This document shows positions 42,642 through 48,033 of a stretch of DNA of 64,000 bases, piece after piece. Below the pieces are notes generated by a model. That model saw only the letters and a list, made by a program, of their open reading frames with translations, was not told the origin of the DNA and did not search any database. The stretch is from Deltaproteobacteria bacterium (GTDB lineage: Bacteria; Desulfobacterota; Syntrophia; Syntrophales; UBA5619). Both the position numbers and the translations under genes were made by a program. The stretch lies in NCBI GenBank assembly GCA_021372695.1, contig JAJFTY010000038.1, positions 61,946 through 125,945 of the forward strand. The letters are read 5' to 3'. Every line of letters starts with the position of its first letter. The stretch's first letter is position 1.

Positions 42642-45632
42642 TCAGAAGGCCAGGGGCTTCTGCCAGGCCGCCTTGAGGTCGGCCAGATCCGCCTCGACGA
42701 TCTTCGTTCCCGCGAGACCTTCGATCCGGAGGATCCCATCGGCGATCACCCGGCCGATGCAGGCATAGTCGCACCCCGCAAGATGTGCCTCGAAGGCTTC
42801 CCGCACGTCCGGATGGATCGTCGCGACGAAGCGGCTCTGCGATTCCGAAAAGAGAAGCTCGTCGTTTCTCCCGATCCCCTCGGCCGGAACGGCCCTCAGG
42901 TCGACCGCGAGGCCGAGCCCCCCGGCGAAGGCCGTTTCCGCGAGCGCTGCACCGAGCCCACCGTCCGAGCAGTCATGGCAGGAGGCGACTTCGCCTGACC
43001 GGATCGCCCGGCCGAGTGCTTCGTAGAGCGTTCTCGCCGTCCGGGGATGCACCCGGGGAACGCCGTTGCCGACCGCCCCGTTCTGCGCGTACCACTCCGA
43101 TCCGCCCAATTCGCGATGGGTTTTCCCCAGAACGTAGACGAGATCTCCGGGCTTCTTGGCATCCATTGTGACGGCCTTCCGGACATCCTCCATCTTGCCC
43201 AGGGTGGAGAAGAGGAGGGTGGGGGGGATCGAGATCTTGACCTCGCCGATCTGGTAGTCGTTCTTCATGCTGTCCTTCCCCGAGATGCAGGGGACGCCGT
43301 AGGCCGTGGTGAGGTCGTAAAGCGCCTCGTTCGCGCGGACGAGCTGGGCGAGCTTGTACTCCCCGTCGGGGTTCTTCGCCGATTGGACCGGGTCGCACCA
43401 GCAGAAGTTATCGAGCCCGGCCAGCCGGTCGAGGGGCGCCCCCACGGCGACGGCGTTTCGCACCGCTTCGTCGATGGCAGCGGCGGCCATGTCATAGGCG
43501 TCGATGTCGCTGTAGCGGGGGCAGATGCCGCTCGCGACCACGATTCCCTCGAAGGAGTCCAGGACCGGCCGGATCACGGCGGCATCGCTCGGGCCGTCGT
43601 TTTGGGCGCCGGTCAGGGGCTTGATCACGCTCCCCCCCTGGACCTCATGGTCATACTGGCGGACCACCGACTCCTTGCTGCAAACGTTGAGGCGCGAGAG
43701 GACCGCTTTCAGTGCACCCGCCAGGTCCGGCGGTTCCGGAAAATCGGGTTCCGCATGGCGCGGGGGCGCCCAGACGGCTTTGAGCTCCATCTGCGGGAGG
43801 CCCTCATGGAGGAAGGACATCTCGACCATGACCACGGTCTCTTCCCCGTAGCGGATGTGGAACCAGCCCGAATCGGTGTAGCGTCCGAGCACCGTGGCTT
43901 CGACATCCATCTTCCGGGCGAGGCAGAGGAATTCGTCGATTTTCGCCGGATCGACCGCGAGTGTCATCCGCTCCTGGGATTCGGAGATGAGAATCTCCCA
44001 GGGGTTCAGTCCCGGGTATTTCAGCGGCGCCGCCTTCAGGTCGAGCTCGCACCCTCCGGAGAGGGTCGCCGTCTCGCCCACGGAGGAGGAGAGGCCGCCC
44101 GCGCCGTTGTCGGTGATCGCCCGGTAGAGGCTTCGGTCCCGGGCGATGAGCAGGAAGTCGGTCATCTTCTTCTGGGTGATCGGGTCGCCGATCTGGACCG
44201 CCGTGACCGGTGAACCTTCGTGGAGCTCCTCGGAGGAGAAGGTGGCCCCGTGGATCCCGTCCTTCCCGATTCGTCCGCCGGTCATGACGATCAGGTCCCC
44301 GGGCCGGATCTCCTTCGTGTGGGTCGGTTCGCCCGCGATCCGGGCGGGCATGATCCCCCCGGTCCCGCAGTAAACGAGCGGTTTTCCGAGATAGCGCTCA
44401 TCGAAGACGAGGCAGCCGTTCACGGTCGGGATGCCGCTCTTGTTGCCCCCGTGTTCCACCCCCTCGCGGACCCCCTCGTAGATCCGTCGCGGGTGGAGGA
44501 TCCGCTTCGGCAGCGGCCTGTCGTAGTCGGGTGGCGCAAAGCAGAAGACGTCGGTATTGAAGATCAGCTTCGCCCCCTTGCCGCATCCGAAGGGGTCGCG
44601 GTTCACCCCGACGATGCCGGTCAGCGCCCCGCCGTAAGGGTCGAGCGCCGAGGGGGAGTTGTGGGTCTCCACCTTGAAGACGAGGTTCCAGTCGTCGTTG
44701 AACCGGATGATTCCCGCATTGTCGATGAAAACGGAAAGGCACCAGTCCGCCGCTCCCATCCGCGCCCTGATCTCGCGGGTCGATCGCTTGATGAAGGAGG
44801 AAAAGAGGGAGTCGATTTCCCGGATCTGACCCCGGCCGTCATCGTAGGCGATCCGGGCGTTGAAAATCTTGTGCTTGCAGTGCTCCGACCAGGTCTGGGC
44901 CAGGCATTCGAGCTCCGCGTCGGTCATTTTGGCCCCGAGGCCGACCTTCTGCCTGCGGGCGAGGATCTCCCCGTCTCTCAGGTAGTTCCTGAGGATCTGC
45001 ATTTCTTCGAGGGTCAGGGCCAGGACGCGCTCCTGGCTGATCCGGACGAGCTCCTCATCGGAAACGTCCAGGTCGATCTCTTCCGTCCGCGGACACTCCT
45101 CCCCGACCACGCGCGGCACGTAGGGTTTGACCCCGGTCGCCGGGTTCCACGTTTTCCCGTCGATGATGTCGTAGCGCTGGATGAGGTCGTTCGCCAGGAG
45201 CTCGGAGGCGATCCGCTCGGCATCCGCCCGGGTGAGGGTGTCCAGGTCGCACCGGCCGCGGATTGCATGGATCGCATACTGGCGTGACGTGTAGACCCGG
45301 ACGGCCTTGCCGGTCAGAAGCCTGATCGCCTCGCTGGCGGTCTTTCCCACATTGTCCGTGACACCAGGCCGGAACCCCACCTCGATCAGCCAGTCGAACC
45401 CGCAGGCGATCCCCCGGTCGATCGTGTAGTCCTGGATCACCGGATCGGAGAGGGGGCCGCGGGCCGCACACTCCAGGTCCGCCTCGTCGAGGGGGCCTTC
45501 GATGGTGTAGACCTCTACGGTCCGGACCGAATCCACGGGAATCCGAAGATGGTCGATGATCCGCCTTCTGATTTTTTCGCCGAGTGCGTCCCGGATTCCC
45601 TGGCTGAATCCGATCTCGATACGATGGTTCAT
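42642..45632 (-). CDS. purL: FGAM synthase with fused PurS-like domain and PurL (PurSL)
   Basis: The 996-aa protein begins with PurS-like ferredoxin-fold sequence (IEIGFSQGIRDALGEKIRRR and VRTVEVYTIEG; a second half starts near WLIEVGFRPGVTDNVGK). It continues into the PurL catalytic part with AQTWSEHCKHKIFNARI, FKVETHNSPSALDPYGG and FGCGKGAKLIFNTDVFC. PurL converts FGAR, ATP and ammonia to FGAM in purine synthesis; in Bacillus PurS is separate and in E. coli all domains including the glutaminase are one chain. Here PurS-like and PurL parts are fused while PurQ stays separate. The start at 45632 has GGAGGAACGGAG upstream. Confidence 0.93.
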   Translation of the reverse strand: MNHRIEIGFSQGIRDALGEKIRRRIIDHLRIPVDSVRTVEVYTIEGPLDEADLECAARGPLSDPVIQDYTIDRGIACGFDWLIEVGFRPGVTDNVGKTASEAIRLLTGKAVRVYTSRQYAIHAIRGRCDLDTLTRADAERIASELLANDLIQRYDIIDGKTWNPATGVKPYVPRVVGEECPRTEEIDLDVSDEELVRISQERVLALTLEEMQILRNYLRDGEILARRQKVGLGAKMTDAELECLAQTWSEHCKHKIFNARIAYDDGRGQIREIDSLFSSFIKRSTREIRARMGAADWCLSVFIDNAGIIRFNDDWNLVFKVETHNSPSALDPYGGALTGIVGVNRDPFGCGKGAKLIFNTDVFCFAPPDYDRPLPKRILHPRRIYEGVREGVEHGGNKSGIPTVNGCLVFDERYLGKPLVYCGTGGIMPARIAGEPTHTKEIRPGDLIVMTGGRIGKDGIHGATFSSEELHEGSPVTAVQIGDPITQKKMTDFLLIARDRSLYRAITDNGAGGLSSSVGETATLSGGCELDLKAAPLKYPGLNPWEILISESQERMTLAVDPAKIDEFLCLARKMDVEATVLGRYTDSGWFHIRYGEETVVMVEMSFLHEGLPQMELKAVWAPPRHAEPDFPEPPDLAGALKAVLSRLNVCSKESVVRQYDHEVQGGSVIKPLTGAQNDGPSDAAVIRPVLDSFEGIVVASGICPRYSDIDAYDMAAAAIDEAVRNAVAVGAPLDRLAGLDNFCWCDPVQSAKNPDGEYKLAQLVRANEALYDLTTAYGVPCISGKDSMKNDYQIGEVKISIPPTLLFSTLGKMEDVRKAVTMDAKKPGDLVYVLGKTHRELGGSEWYAQNGAVGNGVPRVHPRTARTLYEALGRAIRSGEVASCHDCSDGGLGAALAETAFAGGLGLAVDLRAVPAEGIGRNDELLFSESQSRFVATIHPDVREAFEAHLAGCDYACIGRVIADGILRIEGLAGTKIVEADLADLKAAWQKPLAF

Positions 45633-47164: not shown

Positions 47165-47926
47165 ATGGTGAAGACTCCGGAATTGAGGCTGTACCACCGG
47201 CCGGGCTGAGCCTCCTGCGCCGCGGCGAAGGAGTTTCTTTCGCGGAATCGCATCGAATTCATCTCCCGGGACGTGTTTCTGGACCCGGCGGCCAAGGCCG
47301 AGGCCGAGGCTCTGGGGCTGGACGTCGTGCCCGTCGCCGTGCAGGGCGACCGCCGTCTGCTGATTCTGCATAACGATCAACTCAGGGAATTTCTCGGCCT
47401 TCCGGCTGACGCAATGCGGGCCTCGTACCGGGAGTGGGCCGAGGCCATGAACCGGGTCCTGGAGGCTGTCGAGGAGGCTGTGCACCCGGTCCCCTCTGAG
47501 ATGCTGTCGGCCCCGACGCCCAACCGGGGGCGGGACCTGCGGGAACTGGTCTTCAACATCCATGACCGCATCGCGCCCATGGTCGACGCCCTCTCTTCAG
47601 GCGCCTATCCCTGGGTCTCCGCCGATGAGTATGCGCTCAGCCGGCGCTTCCAAACCACGGAGGAACTGGTTTCGTACTGCCGGGAGATGAGGAGTGACTG
47701 GTTCGAAGGAACCTTGCGGGCGGACCCCGACCGGGTGGAAGACCACCCGGTCGAGACGAAGAAAGGGCCGGTCACGCAATTGCAGCTCCTGGAGTCGCGG
47801 GCCTTCCATTCGGCCCAGCACCTGAGGCAGATCTACGTTTTCCTCAAGCAAATCGGGATTGCGCCCGGCCGTGAGATGTCGGCGGAGGAGATGAAGCCGA
47901 TTGTCCTGGGCGATCAGGTGTTCTGA
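47165..47926 (+). CDS. Candidate selenoprotein: glutaredoxin-like UxxC domain fused to DinB-like domain (in-frame UGA at 47207)
   Basis: From the ATG at 47165 the frame reads MVKTPELRLYHRPG, then UGA (47207-47209), then ASCAAAKEFLSRNRIEF and on without a break to the stop at 47926 (253 residues with Sec). The N-terminal 80 residues are a glutaredoxin/thioredoxin fold whose CxxC would be U15-A-S-C18; VVPVAVQGDRRLLIL provides the cis-Pro strand. Residues about 85-250 look like a DinB-type four-helix bundle (WAEAMNRVLEAVEEA; ESRAFHSAQHLRQIYVFLKQ). AAAGGG and GGAGGAAT lie before the ATG. A bacterial SECIS-like hairpin follows the UGA. Without Sec, a GTG at 47273 would give a truncated protein lacking the redox motif and a ribosome-binding site. 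A nonsense-mutated pseudogene is the alternative. Confidence 0.72.
47225..47243 (+). promoter_or_regulatory. Putative bacterial SECIS hairpin
   Basis: GCGAAGG (47225-47231) pairs with CTTTCGC (47237-47243), 7 bp with one G-U, closing the loop AGTTT (47232-47236). The loop starts 22 nt after the UGA and has G as its second base, agreeing with the known bSECIS rules (short apical loop, G among its first two bases, about 16-37 nt from UGA). An alternative overlapping hairpin CTCCT...AGGAG starts 2 nt after the UGA. Confidence 0.6.
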
Positions 47927-47960: not shown

Positions 47961-48033
47961 TCATGCCGGCGAAAGCCGGCATCCAGTCTTTCCAAGACCT
48001 TCTGGACCCCGGCTTTCGCCGGGGTGACAACGG
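47961..48033. repeat. Paired palindromic repeat of the same family as 3015-3167 (core only)
   Basis: GTCATGCCGGCGAAAGCCGG...ATCCAG at the left and CTGGACCCCGGCTTTCGCCGG...GTGAC at the right are the same two half-palindromes seen inside the element at 3015-3167, here separated by a short spacer. The 21-bp terminal repeats are not recognisable. It lies in the 384-bp gap between the glutaredoxin-DinB and amidohydrolase genes. Confidence 0.7.

Follow-up and report, generated by a model that had tools for sequence, protein, structure and literature searches.

A predicted selenoglutaredoxin joined to a DinB/YfiT-type domain in a deltaproteobacterial contig and its actinobacterial relatives

Within a 64,000-nucleotide stretch of contig JAJFTY010000038.1 from a Deltaproteobacteria bacterium (the window), the gene at 47165..47926 very likely encodes a selenoprotein of two domains, a glutaredoxin with a U-x-x-C active site followed by a DinB/YfiT-type helical bundle. 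Its frame of 254 codons opens with an ATG at 47165, is interrupted solely by a TGA at codon 15, and then runs through 238 sense codons before stopping at the TGA of 47924-47926. The internal TGA occupies the first Cys position of the glutaredoxin C-x-x-C motif, giving U15-A-S-C18, and we regard insertion of selenocysteine (Sec) at this codon as very probable. Most likely, the gene represents a real selenoprotein family, a selenoglutaredoxin fused to a domain resembling thiol transferases, whose members have been shortened by gene callers. A preliminary description, prepared from the DNA alone, had placed the frame, the UGA and a following hairpin at these positions, and re-reading of the sequence bore this out. 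The relevant features are:

47165..47926, + strand: gene of the predicted selenoprotein, closed by a TGA stop and 253 residues long when UGA15 is decoded as Sec
47207..47209, + strand: predicted Sec codon UGA (U15), position 1 of the U-A-S-C active site; TGA is kept in relatives and replaced by Cys in protein P0073
47273..47926, + strand: 217-residue open reading frame (ORF) with a GTG start, left if UGA15 is a stop; homologues have an equivalent start

Conservation of the UGA codon

A scan of genome contigs recovered three loci with 29-31% identity, in metagenome-assembled genomes titled Actinobacteria, Propionibacteriales, and Actinomycetes, and in all three the corresponding codon is TGA. 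Among the 129 genomes of the order to which one of them belongs, 8 match, each match having exactly one internal stop, a TGA. A class sample gave matches in 8 of 399 genomes, with one TGA each, and added genome G878. A phylum sample of 296 genomes contained one full-length member, already known, together with 13 genomes with short weak matches; when seven of these short loci were re-examined, six could be aligned at the site and have Cys there, and the seventh yielded no alignment. Loci L017, L018, L019, L020, and L022, which have Cys at the site and look like ordinary glutaredoxins, were rejected as family members. Each of two further orders (245 sampled, 232 genomes) yielded only its already known member, and nothing of use was found in the viral contigs searched. 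A weak relative (L028:1501-1614, VFWKVGCASCATACSYA) has Cys at the site, and its match meets a stop about 15 residues later.

The collection thus comprises ten distinct relatives with DNA, from Actinobacteria, and TGA stands at the Sec codon in every one of them. Identity to the window protein is 26-33% for nine of them; the tenth, L038, is a fragment at a contig edge. L031 and L032 are 93% alike. Including the window, an in-frame UGA with the coding frame conserved on both sides is found at 11 of 11 loci. This persistence, together with the Cys version described below, supports the earlier proposal that Sec is encoded at the UGA.

Protein homologues were drawn from a single-sequence search (66 proteins) and from the best 120 of 351 matches of an alignment search, with 142 distinct proteins among the matches listed. 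Annotation begins after codon 15 in 140 of these 142, always at M, V, or L, and does not itself give the identity of the upstream stop; P0024 and P0027 are counted here as downstream starts following BLAST (residue 37), while the aligner placed both at or before codon 15. The annotated starts are scattered across positions 17-95, as expected when a gene caller restarts after a stop. Eleven of the 66 begin at the codon equivalent to GTG 47273, eight of them being 77-92% identical to the window protein, and one homologue with a downstream start is named Chloroflexota. P0073 is open through the site with a Cys (RPGCASCAAAKEF), the sole Cys among the 142, and so supplies a Cys/Sec pair opposite the UGA.

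The preliminary description had named close homologues without Cys or Sec, and disruptive mutations typical of a pseudogene, as findings that would speak against a selenoprotein. Neither is seen in general: ten of ten relatives with DNA have TGA, one of the 142 listed homologues has Cys and a single one, whose frame is later shifted, has Arg. In the eight homologues that are 77-92% identical, the downstream frame is intact across 215-217 residues, an argument against a pseudogene. A sequencing error or pseudogene was likewise rejected since ten further loci, including a pair 93% alike, share the TGA and the frame is intact in close relatives. General reassignment of UGA was rejected because the window gene, L002, and L035 all end at TGA; the terminal TGA of the window gene coincides with the end of most aligned homologues, so TGA is not decoded as an amino acid everywhere.

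We also considered whether translation genuinely stops at UGA15, with the shorter DinB-type product from GTG 47273 as the functional protein and the 14 upstream codons as a remnant or leader. The downstream starts of 140 of 142 listed homologues agree with such a product, and DinB proteins are able to work without a glutaredoxin domain according to the available text of PMC5815605. However, many of the shortened forms would retain a partial thioredoxin fold deprived of its first strand and of the first residue of the active site, the starts scatter instead of coinciding, and the upstream strand, the UGA, the second Cys, and the hairpin are all kept in diverged copies; P0073, moreover, reads across the site with Cys. 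A leader peptide is unlikely because the 14 codons hold the first glutaredoxin strand of the predicted structure, partly inside the Pfam match. Overall, we judge termination at UGA15 highly improbable.

Domain architecture and predicted structure

Two domains and a probable metal-site motif were assigned in the window protein:

47180..47404, + strand: glutaredoxin/thioredoxin-fold domain, about residues 6-80
47417..47890, + strand: DinB/YfiT (S-transferase-like, STL) helical bundle, about residues 85-242
47807..47821, + strand: two His residues, H215-x3-H219, likely to form part of the metal site in the DinB domain; all 79 members of alignment A4 have both, and by position they probably correspond to YfiT/BstA ligands

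With Cys placed at the UGA, Pfam Glutaredoxin (PF00462) scores 33.7 bits against a cut-off of 22.9, and the match spans the site. An AlphaFold model with a predicted local distance difference test score (pLDDT) of 94.5 comprises a glutaredoxin and a DinB/YfiT bundle. U15, C18, and P56, the last probably the cis-Pro of the glutaredoxin site, are conserved wherever covered, except for Arg at U15 in P0066; Cys18 is present in every copy that covers its position. Score, C/U-x-x-C motif, and probable cis-Pro site are all those of a glutaredoxin, and the UxxC glutaredoxin of the preliminary description is upheld by the Pfam score and the predicted fold.

The second domain, described earlier as DinB-like, is less evident in sequence. 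Pfam DinB_2 reaches 15.2 bits in the window protein, below its gathering score of 24.8, and other DinB families likewise stay under cut-off. DinB_2 is nevertheless matched at E<=0.01 by 45 of the 79 aligned members, and the C-terminal fold of the model matches DinB/YfiT structures as a YfiT-type helical bundle, so that the assignment finds support in both fold and family. A sequence search of solved structures returned weak glutaredoxin matches and chance-like matches only. A His that may correspond to the first of the three YfiT metal ligands lies at column 133 in 53 of 79 members and at column 134 in 8 of 79, and is absent in a third clade. This clade consists of L037 and proteins P0076-P0148, one of which (P0082) is named Thermoleophilia; L037 has U-P-L-C at the active site, and the inspected copies have neither the NIH motif nor the first DinB His and keep HxxxH.

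A hairpin follows the UGA

Downstream of the UGA lies a hairpin resembling a bacterial Sec insertion sequence (bSECIS) element:

47225..47243, + strand: bSECIS-like hairpin with loop AGUUU (47232-47236), the loop beginning 22 nt after the UGA; it fits the bSECIS model in the available text of PMC13188914

That text gives as constraints a loop of 3-9 nt, a stem of 4-16 bp, a G in loop positions 1-2, and a distance of 16-37 nt from the UGA. The window hairpin, GCGAAGG-AGTTT-CTTTCGC, satisfies these, with 7 bp (one of them G-U), G second in the loop, and 22 nt of spacing. A hairpin at the same distance downstream of TGA, within the same published constraints, is present at 11 of 11 loci. Relatives have GCC(A/G)AGG-AGTT-CCTTGGC or a close variant: L037 has A-U for the outer G-C, in four copies G-U replaces A-U, and L002 lacks the outer pair.

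In the relatives' register, 95.7% of cells pair. Two pairs change on both sides, each in one cell, one of these being the window. The covariation score is reached by 3 of 500 shuffles, although related sequences can reach such a score without structure. Codon usage in the hairpin also supports the selenoprotein reading. The hairpin Leu codon is CTT in the window and in all eight of the diverged copies from Actinobacteria, CTT making up 6-20% of Leu codons across the eight flanking regions measured, with 15% in the window, while ten other conserved Leu columns are mostly CTG or CTC. Mean codon identity is 0.95 for the five scored hairpin codons versus 0.71 across 47 conserved columns elsewhere; full conservation is also seen in 6 of the 47. 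When copies were synonymously recoded one by one, four of nine tested were striking (36-89 of 4000 recodings as stable), and the remaining five were not (window 258, L031 263, L032 345, L039 607, and L002 767 of 4000). It is conservation across loci, not the window hairpin taken alone, that bears the evidential weight.

Selenocysteine machinery in genomes with family members

Ten genomes carrying the family were examined for selA, selB, and tRNA-Sec. Both selA and selB exceed their cut-offs in six of the ten, and tRNA-Sec exceeds the Rfam cut-off in seven, for which ARAGORN calls six tRNA-SeC(tca) and one (G003) tRNA-Ser. Because the Rfam search also gave hits above cut-off in 5 of the 14 control genomes, the ARAGORN calls were relied on. 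At least one clear component (selA, selB, or tRNA-Sec) is found in seven of the ten genomes. In G878, tRNA-Sec, selA, and selB lie within 6 kb on a single 5.95-Mb contig, and in G001 a 50-bit selB-type fragment shares a contig with its tRNA-Sec.

Several observations weigh against Sec insertion. The window hairpin alone is weak evidence, because 258 of 4000 synonymous recodings are equally stable and because other folds win at some of the lengths tried. The folding check proposed in the preliminary description accordingly gave a divided answer: the 27-nt and 60-nt stretches of the window are predicted to fold into the hairpin, and another stem-loop is preferred at 45 and 50 nt. The 50-nt piece of L033 also folds otherwise than as the conserved hairpin. 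The window hairpin pairs one base out of the relatives' register, keeping seven pairs by a one-base slide of its 3' arm, with five of seven pairs in the relatives' own register. No Sec machinery was detected in G378, G379, and G393 (three of the ten genomes), which are fragmented assemblies whose contig numbers reach at least 188, 281, and 55, respectively. Enrichment of Sec genes was not found either: selB is over cut-off in 4 of 8 family-positive genomes of one order and in 73 of its 129 genomes. Since Sec is common in that order, the machinery counts as consistency rather than enrichment. Within the 64-kb window no sel gene was found, including by tblastn with the sel genes of relatives. 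Finally, P0066 has Arg at the Sec position, the only such case among the listed homologues.

This last protein bears on whether the UGA could be read as Arg, Trp, or Cys by near-cognate decoding instead of Sec. Its Arg, and the three genomes in which no Sec machinery was found, would fit such decoding. However, the P0066 frame is lost near residue 118, about 100 residues past the site; the position corresponds to the catalytic Cys in glutaredoxins, and a Cys version exists; the hairpin agrees with the bSECIS model of PMC13188914, and Sec genes occur in seven of ten relatives. We give near-cognate decoding hardly any credence, and Sec insertion remains strongly preferred.

A possible thiol-coupled mechanism

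SelB and tRNA-Sec would decode UGA15 as Sec, directed by the hairpin that follows, and the product would carry a glutaredoxin-type U-x-x-C redox centre ahead of the DinB/YfiT (S-transferase-like) bundle. The selenolate may attack disulfides, selenenyl, or other oxidised substrates. The DinB domain, in turn, could bind a metal through its His site and activate a low-molecular-weight thiol, which would be supplied to resolve the selenium adduct, making the protein a self-contained thiol-dependent selenoredoxin. In the available text of PMC5815605, metal-dependent bacillithiol transferase activity is ascribed to eight DinB/STL proteins of B. subtilis, and the YfiT/BstA metal ligands are H67, H160, and H164. 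Cooperation of the two domains, including a thiol-transfer role, is suggested by this anatomy, and we propose a thiol-coupled selenoredoxin served by its DinB domain only tentatively, with somewhat less than even confidence. Two observations count against this proposal, namely that neighbouring genes vary from genome to genome and that one clade is without the first DinB His.

Alternatively, the selenoprotein could be GST-like (GST, glutathione S-transferase) or serve in metal or metalloid detoxification, with Sec binding a metal or electrophile and no thiol-disulfide cycling. Like GSTs, the window protein has a thioredoxin-fold N-terminal domain and an all-helical C-terminal domain; unlike them, its C-terminal domain best matches DinB bundles, and the listed Foldseek matches to GSTs all have a root-mean-square deviation (rmsd) of at least 11.6 A. 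No metal-resistance family was recognised among the 18 neighbouring ORFs scanned, 6 of which matched no Pfam family, and the neighbours share no theme between genomes. The retention of Cys18 in every copy covering it also speaks against a function without thiol-disulfide cycling, and we consider this alternative unlikely. Less probable still is an arrangement in which the selenolate sits at the DinB metal site or completes it and a metal-bound low-molecular-weight thiol is passed to selenium; the protein would then be a metal-assisted thiol transferase based on selenium, with a GST-like layout that would have evolved separately and gone unseen because of shortened annotation; such docking would be most plausible in the clade without the first His.

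Relationship to known selenoproteins and DinB proteins

The glutaredoxin domain has the same fold as the selenoprotein glutaredoxin cGrx1 (PF00462, UxxC; PDB 7c10/7c12), with 32% identity over 73-75 residues of the window model. The cGrx1 chains have 84 residues and, unlike the window protein, no DinB domain. Judging by reference titles, cGrx1 derives from a Sec-containing clostridial glutaredoxin. The best NCBIfam match of the glutaredoxin part is to the UXX-star families (NF041212, NF041211, NF045501), at 37.5 bits and E 2e-9. This is below the curated NF041212 cut-off of 66, so membership was rejected, and the listed UXX-star fusion is HUGP/GUXX-star, whereas the window protein has DinB. 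No NCBIfam model spans the fusion in the 79 members scanned.

The C-terminal domain shares its fold with the DinB/YfiT superfamily (YfiT 1rxq, mycothiol S-transferase 8f5v, DR0053 6iz2), and an HxxxH motif is invariant in all 79 members. Two-domain DinB/STL proteins, EgtB and a lincomycin enzyme, have other partner domains and no Sec-glutaredoxin in the available text of PMC5815605. Table 1 of a 2026 review covers 119 selenoprotein families and subfamilies; it lists Sec-glutaredoxins with UxxC and UXX-star families, and no DinB fusion. A term search for 'DinB' found no mention in the available text of PMC13188914 or PMC12013277. A full-text literature search likewise found no Sec-glutaredoxin/DinB fusion, with incomplete coverage of the 2025 literature. 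We therefore call Grx-DinB (glutaredoxin-DinB) a new selenoprotein family, though priority is not certain.

Other features of the window

A long inverted repeat at 47962-48030 (CCGGCGAAAGCCGG ... CCCCGGCTTTCGCCGGGG), recognised by eye, lies between the predicted selenoprotein gene and a downstream amidohydrolase and looks like a repetitive extragenic palindromic (REP)-type element or a terminator. A search against Rfam at gathering thresholds gave nothing useful in the window. On the - strand, 42642-45632 encodes a 996-residue protein in which PurS is fused to PurL-type phosphoribosylformylglycinamidine (FGAM) synthase domains; its closest relatives among named matches are from Deltaproteobacteria and Syntrophales, in agreement with the Desulfobacterota named in the preliminary description.

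Implications

With Grx-DinB, selenoproteins would gain a family whose combination of domains does not appear in the 119-family review table. The family spans Actinobacteria and the Desulfobacterota-like window, and thus more than one major bacterial group. That 140 of 142 listed homologues begin past the predicted Sec residue indicates a systematic annotation error, and the family, shortened by gene callers, has most likely been overlooked.
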